53,230 nucleotides of DNA, taken from NCBI GenBank assembly GCA_030834125.1, contig JAURFW010000012.1, forward strand, positions 1 to 53,230. Direction: 5' to 3'. This stretch comes from Bacteroidota bacterium (GTDB taxonomy: Bacteria > Bacteroidota > Bacteroidia > NS11-12g > UBA955). The notes under the pieces are model-generated. The model searched no databases. It saw only the letters and a program-made list of their open reading frames with translations, and was not told the origin of the DNA. A program made the translations under genes and the position numbers. Below, piece by piece: positions 1,386 through 10,199 of the stretch (its first letter is position 1; every line of letters begins with the position of its first letter).

Positions 1386-1746
1386 GGCAGTTCTATAAGC
1401 CGGGTTCTGTAAACACGGTTTTGCCGTGCCTTCTATCATTAATCTAGGATGTATCTCACGATACACCTCAATCAACCTACCCTTCCGGCTTGCAAGCAAT
1501 TAGGCGGGCCGCCCTTTTATCCGGATATATTTGGTCTTTCAACCCGCAAGGTTTACCCCAATCTTAACTCACATTAAGATGAGTGAGCTCTTACCTCACT
1601 TTTTCACCCTTACCAAGAAATCTTGGCGGTTTAGTTTCTGTGGCACTTTCTGTGAACTTAAAGTCCCCTTCCTGTTAGGAAGTGCGGTGCCCTATGTTGC
1701 CCGGACTTTCCTATCCGATATACGGATTGATAGAACGAACTGCCTC
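1386..1746 (-). ncRNA. rnpB: RNase P RNA (class A)
   Basis: The minus strand carries the hallmarks of bacterial RNase P RNA, the ribozyme that trims the 5' ends of tRNA precursors. The P1 helix pairs GGCAGTTC at the 5' end with GAACTGCC at the 3' end. The conserved P4 region reads AGGAAAGTCCGGGC, and the 3' conserved block reads ACAGAACCCGGCTTATAGAA. The length of about 360 nt is normal. A T-run directly follows the closing P1 strand and may end transcription. The exact ends are estimated from P1 and from the promoter element at 1750-1757. Apparent reading frames through this region are not genes. Confidence 0.95.
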
Positions 1747-1749
1747 CTA

Positions 1750-1757
1750 CAAAAATA
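1750..1757 (-). promoter_or_regulatory. -7 element of rnpB
   Basis: TATTTTTG on the minus strand ends four bases before the expected RNase P RNA 5' end, matching TAnnTTTG. No clear TTG sits at the usual distance upstream. Confidence 0.5.
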
Positions 1758-1795
1758 GGCATAGTTTTTTGCTTCGAGAAACAATTCACAGACCT

Positions 1796-1803
1796 TATCT
1801 TTG
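1796..1803 (+). promoter_or_regulatory. -7 element of the gatB operon
   Basis: TATCTTTG matches TAnnTTTG and ends 7 bases before the gatB ATG, so the operon transcript would have almost no leader. It is divergent from the rnpB promoter 40 bases away. Confidence 0.55.
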
Positions 1804-1810
1804 CATTAAT

Positions 1811-3259
1811 ATGGAATCCATAGAATTTGAAGCGGTAATTGGACTTGAAATACACATTCAGTTATTAACAATGAGTAAGGCATTTTCATCTGATGCAACA
1901 GAATATGGTGCGCTTCCAAATACTCAAGTAAGCCCAATAAGTTTAGGACATCCCGGTACATTACCCAAGCATAATTCCGAAGCTATTTCCATGGCCATGA
2001 AAATGGGACTTGCTTTGGATTGTGATATTACGCGAGTTAATCGTTATTCAAGGAAAAACTATTTTTACGCCGATTTACCCAAAGGATACCAAATTACTCA
2101 GTTCGATACTCCACTTTGCACCAAGGGAATTGTACCTATTCGCTTAAAAGACGGAACAGAAAAAGAAATTCGTCTTACCCGTATTCATATGGAAGAGGAT
2201 ACAGGAAAAAGCATGCACGATCAGGATTTAACCGATACATTGGTTGATTATAATAGAGCAGGAACACCACTCATTGAAGTAGTAACCGAACCAGATATAA
2301 AAACTGGCGAAGAAGCATATGCTTTTGTTTCTGAAATTAGAAGATTGGTGAGATACTTAGAGATTTGTGATGGTAATATGGAGGAAGGAAGTTTGCGCTG
2401 TGATGCAAATATTTCAGTTATGCCTAAGGGCTCTAATGTATTTGGGACCAAGGTAGAAGTAAAAAACATGAACTCTATCTCAAATGTGCGAAGAGCTATT
2501 GATTTTGAAATTGAACGTCAGATTGAATTGATTCAGAATGGTGGTAAGGTTTCAGGTGAGACCAGAGGATTTAATGGATTAAATGGAACTACTTTTAGTA
2601 TGAGAAAAAAGGAAGAAGTTAATGACTATAGATACTTCCCTGAGCCTGACCTCCCTCCTACTATTATTACAGATCAAATCATTAAAGATGTAAAAAGTAA
2701 AATGCCTGACCTTCCGAGACATTTATATAAGAAGTTTACATCAGATTACGGACTATCCGATTATGATGCCAATGTCCTAATTGATGACAAACTTTCTGCA
2801 AATTACTTTCAAGAAATTCTTAATCATACAAGCAATTTTAAAGCAGCCAGTAATTGGGTAAGCGTAACTATCAGAGGATACTTAAACGAAAATGCCCTTA
2901 ACATTAGTGATTTCCAATTAACTCCTATTCAAATTGCTCAAATAATAGAACTCATTGACAAGGGTACAATAAATCATTCTATTGCTAGTCAAAAATTGTT
3001 TCCTGCACTTGTAAAAACACCAAATACATCCCCCAAGGAAATTGTTAAATCTATGAATTTGGGTACTAATTCTGATTCATCATTCATTGAGGATATAGCG
3101 AATACAGTAATTACCGAGTTTCCTGAAAAGGTCAAAGAATACAAAAATGGGAAAAAAGGATTGCTTGGAATGTTTGTAGGAGAAGTTATGAAACGATCAA
3201 AAGGAAAAGCAGATCCTAAAATTGCGAATCAAATAATTCAACAAAAGCTTAATTCATAG
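1811..3259 (+). CDS. gatB: Asp-tRNA(Asn)/Glu-tRNA(Gln) amidotransferase subunit B
   Basis: GatB is the tRNA-binding and kinase subunit of the GatCAB complex, which turns misacylated Glu-tRNA(Gln) or Asp-tRNA(Asn) into the amidated form in the cytoplasm. The 482-residue product is of family length and shows VIGLEIHIQL near the start, LGHPGTLPKHN, HMEEDTGKS, DYNRAGTPLIEVV, EEGSLRCDANISV and the C-terminal YqeY-like tail. The frame is open upstream to 1682, but that extension runs through the RNase P RNA gene. The ATG at 1811 gives the normal GatB N-terminus and lies just after a promoter element. gatA and gatC are not here. The next gene begins 3 bases after the stop, so gatB appears to head the Dlt-like operon. 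Confidence 0.97.
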   Translation: MESIEFEAVIGLEIHIQLLTMSKAFSSDATEYGALPNTQVSPISLGHPGTLPKHNSEAISMAMKMGLALDCDITRVNRYSRKNYFYADLPKGYQITQFDTPLCTKGIVPIRLKDGTEKEIRLTRIHMEEDTGKSMHDQDLTDTLVDYNRAGTPLIEVVTEPDIKTGEEAYAFVSEIRRLVRYLEICDGNMEEGSLRCDANISVMPKGSNVFGTKVEVKNMNSISNVRRAIDFEIERQIELIQNGGKVSGETRGFNGLNGTTFSMRKKEEVNDYRYFPEPDLPPTIITDQIIKDVKSKMPDLPRHLYKKFTSDYGLSDYDANVLIDDKLSANYFQEILNHTSNFKAASNWVSVTIRGYLNENALNISDFQLTPIQIAQIIELIDKGTINHSIASQKLFPALVKTPNTSPKEIVKSMNLGTNSDSSFIEDIANTVITEFPEKVKEYKNGKKGLLGMFVGEVMKRSKGKADPKIANQIIQQKLNS

Positions 3260-3262
3260 GAA

Positions 3263-4690
3263 ATGGATTTCCGAGAACTTATTGCAACAAATATTCATAA
3301 CAATTTAGATGCACTTTGTTGTACAATTTCAGGAGAACCTTACACGTATAATGATTTAAATCAATTTCTAGAAATTCACTGTCAGTCCTTTGATAATATT
3401 TCAAATTCAAGAATAGGAATCATTATTAGAAATGATTTTAATACCTATGCCGCTATAATTTCTTCAATTCTTAATGGTGTAACATTCGTACCGATAAACC
3501 CAAATTACCCAGAGCAAAGAATTACTGATATTATCAAAGCATCAGAGATAAATACTTGTTATGATAGCTTTAATTCATTTCGATTTGAAGATGTAAATCT
3601 TCTGAATGGAAATGAAAAAAATGAAATATGGAGACTTAAAACTATAGATTATAGCCGCTTTTGCTATATTCTATTTACTTCGGGTACCACTGGAAAACCC
3701 AAAGGTGTTCCTATCAGTTACTCCAACATAAACGCTTTTTTAATTGGGTTTCAAAATTTAGGTTACAATATAACCTCTGAAGATAGGTTCCTTCAAATGT
3801 TTGAACTGACATTTGACTTATCTGTAGTTTCATATATTGCACCTTTAATGTATGGTGCCTCTTTTCATACATTAGATACAAGTATGGTTAAGCCATTGGC
3901 ATTATATGATGCATTAGATTCACAAAAAATAACTATTGCCTTAATGGTTCCATCAGCAATTGACATGTTAATGCCCTATGCAGAAGATATTGAATTACCT
4001 CATTTAAGGTTAACGCAATTTTGTGGGGAGGCACTAAAAAAGCGACAAGTAGAATTATGGAATAATTGTATTCCCAATACACAAATTGATAATGTATATG
4101 GACCCACAGAAGCAACCATCTACTGCACTCGATACACCATACCTCAAAATAATGGTATACTACATCATAATGGTATTGTATGTATAGGAAAGGCAATGAG
4201 TGAAACTGTTTTAGAAATTAGCGTTGAGGGCGAGCTGTGCTTGGGGGGTGGACAAGTTAGTCCAGGTTATTTGCATGCAACAGATGAACAAAAATCTAAA
4301 TTCTATCTAAAAAATAATATCCATTTTTATTACAGTGGAGATAACGCAAGTATTGATAACAACTTATTTTATTGCCATGGCCGAATTGATGATCAAGTTA
4401 AAATCCAAGGATTTAGAGTTGAGCTTGCAGAACTTGAATTTGCCTGCAACAGCATATTCCCAACACTTGAAAACACTGCAATTGCAGTAGATGGAAATAA
4501 TGGCACTGAGTTACATTTATTTGTAAAAACTCACTATAATGAGAATACTCAAAGTAAACTTCAACACAATATAAAACAGCTTCTTCCTTGGTACATGGTG
4601 CCCCATAAAATTCATTGGGTTGATAATTTCCCTTTGAATGTAAATGGGAAAATTGATAAAAATAAATTGAAGCAACAGGTATCCAATTAA
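3263..4690 (+). CDS. DltA-like amino acid adenylation enzyme
   Basis: This stand-alone AMP-binding enzyme of 475 residues should activate a small amino acid with ATP and load it onto the carrier protein two genes on. The core motifs are all present: A3 phosphate loop FTSGTTGKPKG (138-148), A4 FDLSV (184-188), A5 NVYGPTEAT (277-285), A7 YSGD (357-360), A8 GRIDDQVKIQGFRVE (373-387) and the A10 lysine in NGKIDK (461-466). The FDLSV and FCGE (253-256) signatures resemble D-alanine ligase DltA, where the FCGE cysteine is reported to affect D-Ala selection. A small amino acid is therefore likely, though substrate choice is inference. The start lies 3 bases after gatB and the stop overlaps the next ATG by one base. 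Confidence 0.85.
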   Translation: MDFRELIATNIHNNLDALCCTISGEPYTYNDLNQFLEIHCQSFDNISNSRIGIIIRNDFNTYAAIISSILNGVTFVPINPNYPEQRITDIIKASEINTCYDSFNSFRFEDVNLLNGNEKNEIWRLKTIDYSRFCYILFTSGTTGKPKGVPISYSNINAFLIGFQNLGYNITSEDRFLQMFELTFDLSVVSYIAPLMYGASFHTLDTSMVKPLALYDALDSQKITIALMVPSAIDMLMPYAEDIELPHLRLTQFCGEALKKRQVELWNNCIPNTQIDNVYGPTEATIYCTRYTIPQNNGILHHNGIVCIGKAMSETVLEISVEGELCLGGGQVSPGYLHATDEQKSKFYLKNNIHFYYSGDNASIDNNLFYCHGRIDDQVKIQGFRVELAELEFACNSIFPTLENTAIAVDGNNGTELHLFVKTHYNENTQSKLQHNIKQLLPWYMVPHKIHWVDNFPLNVNGKIDKNKLKQQVSN

Positions 4691-5331
4691 TGATAAGATC
4701 AGCAGTATATTCAGACCTGGAATTTATATTTAAATGTATAATTGAATCTGAAAAGTCAGGTTCTAACATTTTTCCTTACACCGCAATATTAGGAATTTCT
4801 GAATTTGAATTTAAATCCGGATTAAAACAGATATTTGAGGAGGAAATACCAAATCAGCCTTGGTGTTTAGATCATTGGATTATTTATGAGCTTGATGGTT
4901 GCCAAGCTGCAGGACTTTGCTATTGGAATGAACAAAGTGGAATGTCGGGATCAGAAATGTTAAAATCGCAAATGCTATCATTTCAATTTTCTGAACAATG
5001 GAAAAGTAACAGCATAAATTTGCAAAAAGTATCCAATATGAGCATCCCTAGAAAAAAAGACTACATTCAGTTGGAGCACTTATTTACACATACTGATTTC
5101 AGAGGAAAGGGTTTGATGAAAAAGTTAATCAATTGGGTATTAAATTCAAATAAATCGAGAGATAAAATTCAAAACCTTGAAATTCAATTATTAAAAGGCA
5201 ATTCCGCAGCACTGTCCTTATATGAATACATGGGATTTTCTGTTGAATCCACAAAATGCGAACCAGAGGTAGAACGTTTAACTTTGTTAAGTAGTGGGTG
5301 CAAAGTACAAATGATTAAACAAAATGGATAG
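4690..5331 (+). CDS. GNAT-family acetyltransferase in the Dlt-like cassette
   Basis: The 213-residue product is a GNAT-fold acyltransferase. The acyl-CoA pyrophosphate loop is FRGKGLMKKLI (137-147), on a strand starting at QLEHLF, and the C-terminal motif is NSAALSLYEYMGF (171-183). No signal peptide is visible, so it should be cytoplasmic. It sits between the adenylation enzyme and the carrier, overlapping the first by 1 base and the second by 8. This suggests that it modifies the activated or carrier-bound group, for example by N-acetylation, but that role is inference. Standard dltABCD operons have no such gene. Confidence 0.8.
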   Translation: MIRSAVYSDLEFIFKCIIESEKSGSNIFPYTAILGISEFEFKSGLKQIFEEEIPNQPWCLDHWIIYELDGCQAAGLCYWNEQSGMSGSEMLKSQMLSFQFSEQWKSNSINLQKVSNMSIPRKKDYIQLEHLFTHTDFRGKGLMKKLINWVLNSNKSRDKIQNLEIQLLKGNSAALSLYEYMGFSVESTKCEPEVERLTLLSSGCKVQMIKQNG

Positions 5332-5566
5332 AGAACAGATAAAAACCGAATTAAAAGGGATCTTTGCAGAAGTTTTTGCAACGCCTGAAATTGAAATCAC
5401 TGACGATTTAAACGCAGAAAAGGTTGATAGGTGGGATTCTCTAACCCATTTAAATATGATATCGGAAGTAGAATCATTTTACAGTATAAAATTCAAACTC
5501 AAAGAATTGATTGGGATGAAAAATGTTGGTGATATGATTGACTTGATAATCAGTAAAAAAGCTTGA
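5324..5566 (+). CDS. Acyl/aminoacyl carrier protein (DltC-like)
   Basis: This 80-residue acidic, helical carrier protein has the phosphopantetheine attachment motif DSL at 38-40 (Ser39) within RWDSLTHLNMI. It should carry the group activated by the enzyme at 3263-4690 to the membrane MBOAT protein at the end of the cassette. The motif also resembles the carriers found beside FkbH-like proteins, so the load could be an acyl rather than an aminoacyl group. The start overlaps the GNAT gene by 8 bases, which implies translational coupling. Primary-metabolism AcpP is unlikely given the motif and context. Confidence 0.87.
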   Translation: MDREQIKTELKGIFAEVFATPEIEITDDLNAEKVDRWDSLTHLNMISEVESFYSIKFKLKELIGMKNVGDMIDLIISKKA

Positions 5567-5569
5567 TTT

Positions 5570-7054
5570 TTGAAATCCCATTTTTTCAAATTACTTACTT
5601 TTTATGGCGTCATAATTCTTGGCACCTTTTTACTTTCATGGTTATTCAGTTATTCTCAATTCAAGAATATATTAGCTGAAAAAGGAGTATATTTTTACAC
5701 ATTAGATTCATTATTTCGATCAAGCGCTATTCAAAATGAATCTCGGCAGACACCCTTAATAAATGACTCTCTAAAGATTGAAAAAGTTGAGGATAATACT
5801 ACAAATGTAGCTACAGAATACAAATACAAGAATCGAAATGTATCATATAAAAACAGGGTAAACCTAAGTGTACAGAATAAAATTTTAGTTGATAGTCTAT
5901 TAGAGAAGCTTAATCATTTAACTTGTTTTTATGGTTCAAGTAGTAGTCTTGAGGCATTTTTTCAAGGATTGGCAAAATCCAAGAGAGACCTTCTTAGAAT
6001 TTGGTATTATGGAGACTCGCAGATTGAAGGGGATCGAATTACAAGCCACGTTAGGACCGCACTTCAAAAGCAGTTTGGCGGGTCTGGGCTTGGATACTTA
6101 CCGTTAAGTACTCCAGCAACTTATATGAATGTTGCACTTAATGATTACAGTCATTGGGTAAAACAAAATTGTTTTAGACATAGAAAATGCAAAATCCCAT
6201 TTTATGTAAGCGGATTAACCTTTACCCCTGAAAATATTAATACAAATTCCAAGTTTTCAATTGACATTAAGAAGTGGCAAAGATTCAAATCATTGAAATT
6301 AGTTTGCGGTACTGATAGCATTGGAGAAGGGCGATTAATTTTATATAAACATAAAAAAGATTCTATTTGGGATACTGCTATTGTAAATTTCAAAACTAAG
6401 TTAATTACTGAGTTTCAGTTATTGGACAGTTTTAGATTTGGGCAGTATGAAATAAAGTCAATTGGAGGCTACTCACCAATTTACGGATATTTCCTAGATG
6501 GAAATAATTACGGAATTCAACTTGACAACTTTGGAATTAGGGGACATAGCGGTGATGGATTGAGACTAATTGACAATGGAATTTTACATCAAGAAAGTAA
6601 TAGATTAAATGCGGGATTAATCATTTTTCAGTTTGGGAATAACATGATTCCTTATCTAAAGACTGATGAAAAGTCTAAACAATGGGTATTACGTATATTC
6701 AAGGGAATAATTCAAAAATATAAAAATCAATGTCCTGCTTCATCTTTGTTATTAATTGGTCCTGGAGATATGGGTCTTGAAGAGAGTGATGGTCCAAAAT
6801 CATATGAATCATGTGCCGTTTTAAATTCGTGGTTAAAAGAGTTTACATTGAAAGAGCAAGTGGCATATTTTGATTTCTACTCTTTATTCCAAGAGTCGGG
6901 AGGAATAATAGAATGGAGGAAAAAAGGGTTAGCTAGTCTTGATGGACATCTATCTCCTAAAGGTCAAAAAACATTTGCAAATCAACTTAACCAAGAATTA
7001 TTATCTGCATATTCAGCATATCAAATAATCACCGGAAATAAAGTATTAAAATGA
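5570..7054 (+). CDS. Membrane-anchored SGNH-hydrolase-like protein (DltD/AlgJ-like role)
   Basis: The 494-residue protein has an N-terminal membrane helix at about 8-28, a polar linker to about 130 and then an SGNH/GDSL-like domain outside the cytoplasmic membrane. Block I is YGDSQ (nucleophile Ser150), block III is FQFGNN (354-358), and the C-terminal block is LDGHLSPKG with His460. The acid sits two residues before the histidine (D-G-H) rather than three as in the usual DxxH. It most likely transfers or handles the group exported by the MBOAT partner. The start is a TTG, because no ATG lies before the membrane helix and the preceding stop is 3 bases away. It overlaps the next gene by 4 bases. 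Confidence 0.78.
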   Translation: MKSHFFKLLTFYGVIILGTFLLSWLFSYSQFKNILAEKGVYFYTLDSLFRSSAIQNESRQTPLINDSLKIEKVEDNTTNVATEYKYKNRNVSYKNRVNLSVQNKILVDSLLEKLNHLTCFYGSSSSLEAFFQGLAKSKRDLLRIWYYGDSQIEGDRITSHVRTALQKQFGGSGLGYLPLSTPATYMNVALNDYSHWVKQNCFRHRKCKIPFYVSGLTFTPENINTNSKFSIDIKKWQRFKSLKLVCGTDSIGEGRLILYKHKKDSIWDTAIVNFKTKLITEFQLLDSFRFGQYEIKSIGGYSPIYGYFLDGNNYGIQLDNFGIRGHSGDGLRLIDNGILHQESNRLNAGLIIFQFGNNMIPYLKTDEKSKQWVLRIFKGIIQKYKNQCPASSLLLIGPGDMGLEESDGPKSYESCAVLNSWLKEFTLKEQVAYFDFYSLFQESGGIIEWRKKGLASLDGHLSPKGQKTFANQLNQELLSAYSAYQIITGNKVLK

Positions 7055-8757
7055 GATTGAAGATTAAATGGAGTTTATTATTTCTTGTAATGTTATTTAC
7101 ATTCAAAATCTATTCCCAACCCCTATTTTGGCATAATTTCAACTACTCCAAATACCAATGGATAGATTCGAATTTAAATGTAATTCAAACACATAATAAA
7201 TCTAACTTGAGACCATTATTTCTTAAGTTGAACAACTCGAACAAGAAAAAAGTACATATACTTCATATTGGTGACTCTCATGTTCAAGCAGATATATTCA
7301 CCAATGAGACTCGTACCTTAATGGGTAGTAGTTTTGGATATTCCGGTAGAGGAATGGTATTCCCTTATACCACTGCCAGAACACACACAGCAGCAGATTA
7401 TCGATGTTATCATTCTGGAAAGTGGCTTTATGCCCGTAATGTAGAGCGTAACCCAGAGTTGCCCTTAGGTGTATCTGGTATAACATCTAAAACATTAGAT
7501 TCAAATTCTGAATTTAGGCTAGTTTTCAAGGATGATGCTATAAAAAAAGATTTCACCAAACTAAGAATATTATGTAAAAGAAGCCCCTACTCTTTTGACT
7601 TGAAAGTAAGCGCAGGAAACGAAAGTAGAGTAATTGATATTTTTAATGACCCTCAAGACAGCCTGACAGATGAAATTATTGTAAATCTCGATAGTGGTTA
7701 TTCTGAATATAAATTTTCAATTGCAAGCCGGGATACGCTTCAAACAAGTTTTGAAATTTACGGATTAAGTTTTGAGTCGGAATCAGACAGAGGATTACTT
7801 TATACTAGTGTAGGAATTAACGGAGCCGGTCATTATTCGATATTAAGGGAAAATTTGCTTCCCCAGCAGCTTAAGATATTAAATCCAGATGCCATAATTT
7901 TAGATGTTGGCGCCAATGATTTTTATCAAAAGGGTATGGATATCCCTACGTTTAAAGACAACTTAATATCAATAATTGATTTATTTAAAAAACAACTTCC
8001 GAGAACTGTAATAATTTTATCTAACAGCCAAGATATTCATCGCGGAGGATATAGTATCAAGTCATGTTCAATATTTTCTATGTTAATCTCTGAAGTAGCA
8101 AAAGAGAAAAATGTTGCCTTCTATGATTGGTATAGAGTTGCTGGAGGTGATAAATCCATGAGAATTTGGCGTTCATTAAGGCTCGCAAATAGAGATGGTG
8201 TGCATTTAACAAGAGATGGATATAACTTAAAGGGAGATTTAATTTATCAGGCGTTTAAATCCACTTGGAAACAATTAATTGCAAAACCAGATACTGCAAG
8301 CAGTTTAATTATTCCATGCATAGATACAATGTTACTGGATTCAAATGGAAATATTAAAGATGGTATTTCAAATTCATCTAAACAGTGGATCGAGCATGAG
8401 GTTCAGACAGGGGAAACAGCTTGGGGGATTGCTCAGCAATACGGAGTTTCAATTACTGATTTGAAAGAATGGAATAAATTGAGAAGTTATTCATTAAAAA
8501 AAGGTCAACAATTAAGAGTATTTACCTTATACGATAGCCAATCAATAAAACCAGTTAAAACAGCAAAAAGTATCAGTTCCACAAAAAGAAGTACCAATAA
8601 AAGTTATAGTAATTACAGATATCATAAAATTCGAACAGGAGAAACATTATATGGTATCGCGCGTAAATATGGAACTACGGTAACAAAAATAAAACGTGCT
8701 AATAATATGGGCTCGAATTTCATTCGAGCAGGGAAGAGCATTAAAATACCAAATTAA
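7051..8757 (+). CDS. Exported SGNH-hydrolase-like protein with two LysM domains
   Basis: The 568-residue protein begins with a signal peptide (about residues 1-23, ending YSQ). An SGNH domain follows with GDSH (Ser76), LDVGAND (285-290) and the canonical DGVH (382-385). After a Ser/Lys/Thr-rich linker come two LysM domains (about 449-491 and 524-567), each with the TGETxxGIAxxYG core. LysM modules bind N-acetylglucosamine polymers such as peptidoglycan, so the target is likely the cell wall, as in O-acyl transferases or esterases of glycans. It overlaps both neighbours (4 bases and 1 base). It could either add or remove the group, and the sequence does not decide this. Confidence 0.85.
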   Translation: MRLKIKWSLLFLVMLFTFKIYSQPLFWHNFNYSKYQWIDSNLNVIQTHNKSNLRPLFLKLNNSNKKKVHILHIGDSHVQADIFTNETRTLMGSSFGYSGRGMVFPYTTARTHTAADYRCYHSGKWLYARNVERNPELPLGVSGITSKTLDSNSEFRLVFKDDAIKKDFTKLRILCKRSPYSFDLKVSAGNESRVIDIFNDPQDSLTDEIIVNLDSGYSEYKFSIASRDTLQTSFEIYGLSFESESDRGLLYTSVGINGAGHYSILRENLLPQQLKILNPDAIILDVGANDFYQKGMDIPTFKDNLISIIDLFKKQLPRTVIILSNSQDIHRGGYSIKSCSIFSMLISEVAKEKNVAFYDWYRVAGGDKSMRIWRSLRLANRDGVHLTRDGYNLKGDLIYQAFKSTWKQLIAKPDTASSLIIPCIDTMLLDSNGNIKDGISNSSKQWIEHEVQTGETAWGIAQQYGVSITDLKEWNKLRSYSLKKGQQLRVFTLYDSQSIKPVKTAKSISSTKRSTNKSYSNYRYHKIRTGETLYGIARKYGTTVTKIKRANNMGSNFIRAGKSIKIPN

Positions 8758-10199
8758 TGGAATTCAACAGTTCGTCTTTTATTGCATTTTGGATAATATT
8801 ATCTCTTGGTTATATCACTTTGGGAAATATTAGAAGTAATACTTTTCAAATATTAAAAAAGTGGTTATTACTTTCTGCTAGCGTATTTTTTATAAGTAGC
8901 ATAACGGGATATGGGATAATTATTTTGTTATTTGGAGGATTATTTGATTTTTACTTAGGACTTAAAATTGGTAATTTTTCCAATGAATCCAAGAAAAAAT
9001 GGGTAATGCGAATTAGCATACTTTGGAATGTGTGTCTAATACTCTTTTGCAACCATATAACGGATTGGTTTACTCTTAATGACCTCAATACAGCACACCA
9101 CTTACCTATTATTTTTCGTGTTATTGGGGTTTCGTTTTTTGCATTTCGCTCAATGAGTTATGTGATGGATGTATACTACGAGAACCTAGATGAACCGGAA
9201 AGGAACGTACTGAATTATTTAAATTATGTACTCTTTTTTCCTTTATACCTATCTGGACCAATACAAGAATATGAAACCTATCAGTCCAGCATAAATTCGG
9301 CAACTTCAAATATCAAAACTGAAAATATTGGTCGAGCTGCATTTTTAATTTCCTTAGGAATAATAAAGAAGTATATACTAGGTAATTATTTAGCACTGAA
9401 TTTTGTAAATCGTGTTTTTGAGAGTTCTGAATTCTTTAGTTCATTAGAATTATTCATTGCGAGTATTGGTCAAACATTCACTTTGTACTTGGATTTTAGC
9501 GGTTATACAGATATTGTTGTTGGATTAGCTTTAATCTTGGGTTTTGAAATTTCTGAAAATTTTAATTTCCCATTTTTAGCGCAAAATGTTACTGAGTATT
9601 GGAAGCGTTGGCATATTACATTGTCCCAATGGTTCAATAAATACGTGTATTTTCCTTTATCCTACTATTTGAGAAGTTGGAAAAAATGGGGTACATCAAT
9701 TTCTGTATTTATTGTTTTCTTAATCAGTGGTTTTTGGCATGGAACACATCCAAATTTTTGGCTTTGGGGAATCATGCACGCCCTATGCATGGTCTGGGAT
9801 GTATTCACGAGCAATATCAGATCTACATGGAAGAAACATATTCCTGCATGGATTTATAAGCCAATCTCTATATTTTTGACCTTTGGATTCCTGACATATT
9901 CCGGGATTTTCTTTAAAGCTAAAGACATCCAACATGGACAATCAATTGTAAAAAAAATACTTGACGGAATAGAATGGGAATTATTTTTAGATTGGTTGGA
10001 TTTGTATCCGTGGATTGCCACAATACTTTTAGGATTAATAATTATCCAGTTTACTTTTTCAAGTTTTTACAATTCTATTTTAAAATTTTATGAAAAAACT
10101 CCAGTAATGTTATTGGCATTACAATTACTTATAGTGATTTTTATAGCATATCAGTTTGATAAAATTGGGTCCCTACCCTTTTATTATTTGCAATTTTAA
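8757..10199 (+). CDS. MBOAT-family membrane O-acyltransferase (DltB/AlgI-like)
   Basis: This 480-residue polytopic membrane protein belongs to the MBOAT family. The family core is clear: PLYLSGPIQEY (162-172), YLDFSGYTDIVVGLALILGF (244-263), WKRWHITLSQWF with His286, and SGFWHGTHPNFWLWG with His328, the two histidines conserved in DltB and AlgI. It should take the group from the carrier protein on the inner face and pass it across the membrane to the SGNH proteins. It is the last gene of the run and shares one base with the preceding stop. Whether it is closer to DltB or AlgI needs a phylogeny. Confidence 0.92.
   Translation: MEFNSSSFIAFWIILSLGYITLGNIRSNTFQILKKWLLLSASVFFISSITGYGIIILLFGGLFDFYLGLKIGNFSNESKKKWVMRISILWNVCLILFCNHITDWFTLNDLNTAHHLPIIFRVIGVSFFAFRSMSYVMDVYYENLDEPERNVLNYLNYVLFFPLYLSGPIQEYETYQSSINSATSNIKTENIGRAAFLISLGIIKKYILGNYLALNFVNRVFESSEFFSSLELFIASIGQTFTLYLDFSGYTDIVVGLALILGFEISENFNFPFLAQNVTEYWKRWHITLSQWFNKYVYFPLSYYLRSWKKWGTSISVFIVFLISGFWHGTHPNFWLWGIMHALCMVWDVFTSNIRSTWKKHIPAWIYKPISIFLTFGFLTYSGIFFKAKDIQHGQSIVKKILDGIEWELFLDWLDLYPWIATILLGLIIIQFTFSSFYNSILKFYEKTPVMLLALQLLIVIFIAYQFDKIGSLPFYYLQF

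Follow-up and report, generated by a model that had tools for sequence, protein, structure and literature searches.

A Bacteroidota gene cassette joining a Dlt-type donor and a Pat-type acyl shuttle with Ape1-type SGNH proteins and a GNAT

The window analysed here is a stretch of 53,230 nucleotides of contig JAURFW010000012.1 from a Bacteroidota bacterium (GCA_030834125.1), whose genome comprises 2.3 Mb in 94 contigs and is 98% complete. At positions 3263 to 10199 it carries a cassette of six genes, all on the plus strand, which encode a stand-alone adenylation enzyme (A), a GNAT, a carrier protein (CP), two SGNH proteins (SGNH1 and SGNH2) and an MBOAT, and which overlap or abut one another with successive intergenic gaps of -1, -8, +3, -4 and -1 nt (Table 1). 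Six genes of these types had been described by a first-pass annotation of the sequence; all of the open reading frames (ORFs) are found at the coordinates it gave, and a Pfam search matches every product, namely AMP-binding, GNAT, PP-binding, Lipase_GDSL_2 (two proteins), LysM (two stretches) and MBOAT. That annotation did not mention the gatB gene upstream, the homology of SGNH1 and SGNH2 to one another and to Ape1, or the acyl-shuttle motif at the end of the MBOAT. What is described below of the individual parts and their conserved active-site residues, of the acyl-shuttle motif, of the relationship to Ape1 and of gene order and co-occurrence was read from sequence, predicted structures and comparison between genomes, the related records being metagenome-assembled genomes of uncultured Bacteroidota. 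We judge the cassette to be a genuine, conserved and new form of envelope acylation by MBOAT and SGNH proteins, in which a Dlt-type donor, a Pat-type shuttle, Ape1-type SGNH proteins and a GNAT are brought together.

Table 1. Coordinates of the cassette genes, their notable parts and the upstream neighbour in the window.
Feature	Position	Strand	Basis
A, DltA-like stand-alone adenylation enzyme, 475 aa	3263..4690	+	Pfam AMP-binding, NCBIfam DltA, PDB profile, pocket code
GNAT, 213 aa, one GNAT domain	4690..5331	+	Pfam, alignment, AlphaFold, fold search
CP, carrier protein, 80 aa	5324..5566	+	PP-binding 21.7 bits, alignment
SGNH1, 494 aa, TTG start; N-terminal membrane anchor and Ape1-type two-domain SGNH	5570..7054	+	Pfam, PDB profile, model, motifs
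SGNH2, 568 aa; apparent N-terminal export signal, Ape1-type SGNH, two C-terminal LysM domains	7051..8757	+	Pfam, PDB profile, alignment; signal read from sequence
LysM domain 1 of SGNH2, residues about 449-492	8395..8526	+	Pfam and PDB profile search
LysM domain 2 of SGNH2, residues 525-567	8623..8751	+	Pfam
MBOAT, 480 aa, invariant His328 (codon 9738-9740)	8757..10199	+	PF03062 86 bits; aligns to DltB (8jem, 2e-20); alignment
C-terminal acyl-shuttle hexapeptide FYYLQF (FxYxxF) of the MBOAT; Tyr477 (codon 10185-10187), predicted transient acyl carrier	10179..10196	+	Alignment of 18 MBOATs; PatA/DltX motif (PMC12148441)
gatB, immediate upstream neighbour, outside the function	1682..3259	+	Pfam GatB_N 6e-117; synteny

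Gene products of the cassette

The adenylation enzyme matches Pfam AMP-binding at 152 bits (2.6e-44), and its top curated families are the DltA models, with TIGR01734 matched at 241.3 bits, under the cut-off of 559.85. Its best solved relatives in a PDB profile search include LgrA, DltA and 4oxi (1.2e-44), which we take to be AlmE. In a family alignment, the pocket code of the window's enzyme is D-L-V-L-Q-C-V-I-Y-K. Across the window's family the code reads DL(V/M/I/C)LQCVIYK; several relatives have DL(M/Y)LLCVIFK, and two DltA proteins have DLM(I/V)LCTVAK. Asp185 and Lys463, which hold the amino and carboxyl groups of an alpha-amino acid, are conserved in all aligned members and point to such a substrate, and activation of a fatty acid, which the first-pass annotation had named as an outcome that would overturn its view, was rejected on the NCBIfam scores and this amino-acid-type pocket. 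Since the last variable pocket position is Tyr or Phe, larger than the Ala of DltA, glycine is placed first and alanine second, and the enzyme is predicted to activate a small alpha-amino acid, most likely glycine, with D- or L-alanine next. The glycine reading leans on an alignment, made by hand, to the glycine-activating domain 2 of LgrA, whose pocket is DIANLCIIYK. The carrier protein scores just above the PP-binding cut-off of 20.8 and, by alignment, has its phosphopantetheine serine at S39 of a WDSL motif (codon 5438-5440), and the earlier description of a carrier-dependent acylation cassette with an amino-acid-type enzyme is supported. Elsewhere in the source genome (G000:C36:33391-52667) lie several ORFs of nonribosomal peptide synthetase size (1667-2584 aa) with adenylation domains.

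The AlphaFold model of the GNAT is a confident single GNAT domain (predicted local distance difference test score, pLDDT, 94) with a Z score of 17.3 to 4m85. Its coenzyme A (CoA) loop R138-x-x-G141, of the R/Q-x-x-G-x-G/A type, is intact; across 37 sequences R138 never varies and G141 hardly does, and Glu129 and Glu81 are candidate catalytic residues. In two different Bacteroidota genomes, GNAT and CP are fused in one ORF (L073:8001-8891 and L174:1920-2819); these fusions, the location of the gene between A and CP, and its co-occurrence with A suggest that the GNAT works at the carrier. Carrier-using GNATs are known, as in SbzI, SbzC and FeeM (PMC6331615). The GNAT thus recurs as a genuine companion of A and CP, but N-modification of the amino acid, which the first-pass annotation had proposed, is retained here as no more than the best single guess, in the form of N-acylation of the carrier-bound amino acid.

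Both SGNH proteins are homologous to one another and to Ape1, a family of peptidoglycan O-acetylesterases, and in PDB profile searches with either of them it is Ape1 of Neisseria and Campylobacter that ranks first, not PatB (8gkd, 8gld and 4k3u for SGNH1; 4k3u at 2.9e-31 for SGNH2). The SGNH1 model (pLDDT 82) fits Ape1 across both domains, with Z scores of 31.9-33.6 over 339-350 residues (33.6 to 4k3u), as opposed to 15.0 with PatB. An assignment of SGNH1 to PatB was dropped, as papers and the fold search identify 8gkd and 8gld as Campylobacter Ape1, with PatB represented by 7TJB, 7TLV, 7TRR and 8TLB. The active-site motif residues of SGNH1 are Ser150 and the block V residues D458-G-H460, and those of SGNH2 are Ser76 and the DGVH at 382-385; DxxH and two LysM domains are found in SGNH2 of every complete cassette of the window's family. 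In three further records an SGNH2-like LysM protein adjoins an FtsW/RodA-family gene (L145, L146 and L147; confirmed by Pfam in L147 and called by the same start and position in the others). Together, the Ape1-like SGNH proteins, the LysM domains and the FtsW/RodA neighbours favour peptidoglycan as the likeliest acceptor, in line with the peptidoglycan or other envelope glycan suggested at first pass.

Degenerate forms of SGNH2 were also seen. At the same site after gatB, a member of a sister genus (G086, L152:7671-9482) has only the SGNH2-LysM protein, whose catalytic Ser is gone (GDE) and which is perhaps a wall-binding remnant. In G099 (L027:1-1194), SGNH2 has GDF replacing GDS and has lost the His, so that it is probably a dead enzyme judging by these motifs; SGNH1 is missing there between CP and SGNH2.

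The MBOAT reaches 160.4 bits against the DltB model TIGR04091, under the cut-off of 375, and His328, F475, Y477 and F480 are invariant in the 18 aligned MBOATs. The FxYxxF motif ends all six-gene MBOATs with intact C-termini and all other carrier-linked ones that were read but one (FIYFQY); it is absent from both DltB proteins examined, while every other MBOAT of that set has the motif, whether or not carrier genes accompany it. The motif's tyrosine is auto-acetylated in PatA and has been proposed to pass the group to an SGNH partner, and in Dlt systems the same motif lies on DltX, the tyrosine having been shown to be an acyl carrier in both PatA and DltX (PMC12148441). With gaps of -8 to +3 nt there is no room for a separate DltX inside the cassette, to which the search for one was limited. 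In a maximum-likelihood MBOAT tree, the six-gene MBOATs and that of G743 (L071) form a clade with support of 100/99, apart from DltB and from carrier-free SGNH-MBOAT sets, and other carrier-linked MBOATs fall elsewhere, which places carrier-linked MBOATs in more than one part of the tree, so that the carrier label needs at least three changes, some of which may be losses. The first-pass label of a Dlt-like system is corrected here: A and the carrier are as in Dlt, but the MBOAT is not DltB-like in mechanism, and its PatA/AlgI-type motif and position apart from DltB make the cassette a Dlt/Pat hybrid. A plasmid search with the MBOAT returned DltB and Bacteroides comparators, and no carrier-linked homologue of this type was present in the records opened.

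Conservation and genomic neighbourhood

In a neighbourhood survey, the GNAT was searched for in 108 genomes of the order and the surrounding genes were then read. The full order A-GNAT-CP-SGNH1-SGNH2-MBOAT is present in 12 genomes of the window's family, the window included (L020, L023-L026, L028-L032, L034), and in two further members of that family (L021, L033) the contig stops within A, leaving the order incomplete there. Two genomes of a second family of the class (L137, L139) have all six genes in this arrangement, at identities of about 25-47%, such that the exact order spans six genera in two Bacteroidia families. This excludes chance or a local accident and answers the question of conservation that the first-pass annotation had raised, as the order reaches well past close relatives. 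Dispersed arrangements are also found: in G743 (L071) the last five genes are clustered with A located elsewhere in the genome, and in G567 CP, SGNH1, SGNH2 and MBOAT lie together while A and GNAT are separate, giving three separate places.

Co-occurrence was scored in 295 genomes of the class, with the GNAT called at a profile E of at most 1e-25 and A at a profile E of at most 1e-60, by which 13 genomes carry the GNAT and 24 carry A. The adenylation enzyme is present in 12 of the 13 GNAT genomes, compared with 12 of the remaining 282 (Fisher p 5e-14, which ignores shared ancestry and is indicative only), and the thirteenth has a weaker-scoring A beside its GNAT (L178). Likewise, SGNH2 scores above 500 bits in seven genomes, all seven of which have the GNAT, versus 6 of the 288 others (p 5e-11, again with shared ancestry ignored). 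Because several of the GNAT/A pairs are unlinked, neighbourhood alone does not explain their co-occurrence.

Several other loci hold parts of the same gene set. In G103, a decaying cassette after a probable gatB (L181, G103:C30) has only A, a GNAT fragment, CP and SGNH2, and another contig of that genome (L035) has a second CP-GNAT pair beside an MBOAT. Six clusters (L046, L047, L069, L070, L072 and L074), some of them in records labelled Ignavibacteriaceae, have at least one GNAT beside carrier proteins, and most also have A enzymes; several of these clusters include SDR and LuxE/LuxC-like genes, and L046 has an FkbH-like protein, which suggests a wider A-GNAT-CP chemistry.

Upstream, the stop of gatB at 3259 lies 3 nt before the first cassette gene, and the two may share one transcript; gatB is syntenic through the window's family and stands immediately upstream of most of its six-gene cassettes. 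A promoter and terminator scan gave counts close to those of shuffled sequences. Further upstream, positions 172-876 of the window encode an FGE-sulfatase-domain protein, which we suspect to be a GldJ/GldK-type gliding lipoprotein, and a similarly placed gene is found in several relatives.

A proposed acylation route and its rivals

The reading that we prefer, although with a confidence somewhat short of even, is that of a hybrid Dlt/Pat envelope acylation system; what we infer in it is the identity of the amino acid, the reaction catalysed by the GNAT, the acceptor, and which SGNH protein adds or removes the group. In this scheme, A would activate a small alpha-amino acid and load it onto the phosphopantetheine of CP, where the GNAT would act, most likely by N-acylating the CP-bound amino acid with an acyl group (acetyl) taken from CoA. 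The MBOAT would then relay the group, whether aminoacyl or N-acyl-aminoacyl, from CP onto its own Tyr477 on the periplasmic side, from which an Ape1-type SGNH protein would take it to esterify a hydroxyl of a glycan, for which peptidoglycan is the likeliest choice. SGNH1, with its membrane anchor, would be the better candidate for this last step, with SGNH2 as a wall-bound second transferase or an esterase.

Several points weigh against this scheme. In the tree, the MBOAT falls on the side of PatA and AlgI, where characterised members use acetyl-CoA, and Ape1 enzymes remove acetyl groups, so that a transferase role for either SGNH protein is putative; since both are Ape1-like rather than DltD- or PatB-like, one may remove the group instead of adding it. 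Block V of SGNH1 is shortened to DGH in the window's family, one residue short of the usual DxxH, with DxxH or DGH in relatives and DxxH in the second family. The nearest structures to the GNAT are generic acetyltransferases, and an argument from structure alone that it acts on a carrier was dropped, as the carrier-working SbzI-SbzG and CurA GNATL are just two among many Foldseek matches and are not among the VIA top 50 for the model. Operons of A, CP and MBOAT without a GNAT (L193-L195, L197, L199, L201) indicate that the GNAT is unneeded for the core route and optional in relatives, and it was rejected as an obligatory part. The co-occurrence counts, moreover, are uncorrected for shared ancestry.

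These GNAT-free operons are also what favours a route in which unmodified glycine or alanine is transferred to give a cationic ester, as in Dlt, with the GNAT controlling, unloading or editing the carrier. The pocket of A resembles that of DltA, and Dlt moves D-Ala with a free amine by way of CP, MBOAT, Tyr and SGNH (PMC12148441). As opposed to this, the six-gene cassettes always keep the GNAT between A and CP, bar the one apparently decaying copy in G103 (L181), and the GNAT-CP fusions suggest that the GNAT works on the carrier itself, so that we regard this route as possible but not probable. A different target is suggested by related A-GNAT-CP modules that pair with MBOATs followed by a different protein of about 300-380 aa, once weakly AlgX-like (L065), and SGNH folds serve many O-acetylated glycans; here lipopolysaccharide, capsule or exopolysaccharide would be the acceptor, and LysM would merely park SGNH2 at the wall. 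We consider this rather unlikely, as peptidoglycan O-acetylesterases are the closest match for the two SGNH proteins, over both domains in the case of SGNH1, and as LysM and the RodA/FtsW neighbours favour peptidoglycan.

It is also conceivable, although quite improbable, that the operon houses two activities, where A, CP and GNAT make a cytoplasmic amide with aminoacyl-CP as donor, like SbzI, and where the MBOAT, SGNH1 and SGNH2 carry out an acetyl-CoA-fed peptidoglycan O-acetylation like that of PatA and Ape1. SbzI, SbzC and FeeM offer precedents for the former (PMC6331615), and A-GNAT-CP sets occur without an adjacent MBOAT (L061, L066, L067) and within tandem A/GNAT clusters with SDR and further biosynthetic genes; for the latter, Bacteroides has an SGNH-SGNH-MBOAT set without carrier genes. 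The placement of CP immediately before SGNH1 or MBOAT, however, and the GNAT-free A-CP-MBOAT operons tie the carrier to the MBOAT, the carrier-linked six-gene-type MBOATs form their separate, well-supported clade, and the carrier genes in the operon would argue against acetyl-CoA as the donor of the MBOAT. If the hybrid Dlt/Pat scheme is taken to its most specific form, the product would be a new peptidoglycan modification, in which the glycan strands bear N-acyl-glycyl or N-acyl-alanyl esters that are built on the carrier by A and GNAT, flipped via a self-acylating tyrosine of the MBOAT, and written and erased by two Ape1-like SGNH proteins, one of them LysM-tethered; we offer this as a doubtful, speculative extension.

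Comparison with known systems

No paper describing such a cassette was found in a literature search that covered few subscription journals. The cassette would assign a function to a family of GNATs that accompanies adenylation enzymes, and it leads to the prediction that an envelope glycan of a Gram-negative bacterium carries esters of aminoacyl or N-acyl-aminoacyl groups. AlmE, AlmF and AlmG transfer glycine to lipid A in Vibrio cholerae, and this system has in common with the cassette a stand-alone glycine-type adenylation enzyme and a carrier, but the cassette uses an MBOAT and SGNH proteins where Alm has AlmG, and adds a GNAT. The AlgI/AlgX systems of exopolysaccharide O-acetylation share an MBOAT with a C-terminal shuttle and an SGNH-type partner, and one weak downstream AlgX match exists among the A-GNAT-CP-MBOAT relatives, whereas the six-gene cassettes are set apart by a carrier-fed donor and by SGNH proteins that are Ape1-like and include LysM.

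The Dlt system of teichoic acid D-alanylation (DltA-DltB-DltC-DltD-DltX) likewise has a stand-alone amino-acid adenylation enzyme, a small separate carrier, an MBOAT and an SGNH-type protein, and the pocket of the cassette's enzyme agrees with that of DltA at the Asp, Leu, Cys and Lys. The cassette differs in falling below the DltA and DltB model cut-offs, in a shuttle fused to the C-terminus of the MBOAT and not placed on DltX, in Ape1-like SGNH proteins and in the added GNAT and LysM, while teichoic acid is, to our knowledge, not expected in Bacteroidota. Plain membership of Dlt was rejected on the score cut-offs, on the lack of a DltX within the cassette and on the SGNH type. In the PatA/PatB/Ape1 systems of Neisseria and Campylobacter, the MBOAT with its C-terminal FxYxxF, the Ape1-like SGNH proteins and the probable peptidoglycan target are all shared, but the cassette has A, a carrier and a GNAT instead of a plain acetyl-CoA donor, and neither of its SGNH proteins is closest to PatB. 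SbzI, SbzC and FeeM are likewise GNATs that work with an adenylation enzyme and a carrier (PMC6331615), with the carrier-bound acyl group as the donor in natural-product synthesis, as opposed to the GNAT of the cassette, which is predicted to acylate a carrier-bound amino acid.

MBOAT-SGNH acylation has been described either as carrier-fed with a separate shuttle, as in Dlt, or as CoA-fed with a fused shuttle, as in Pat and Alg. The cassette joins carrier feeding with a fused shuttle, which implies that the donor module is swappable, and it falls outside Dlt by its scores and DltX, and outside Pat by having no PatB-like partner, although it would work like both.

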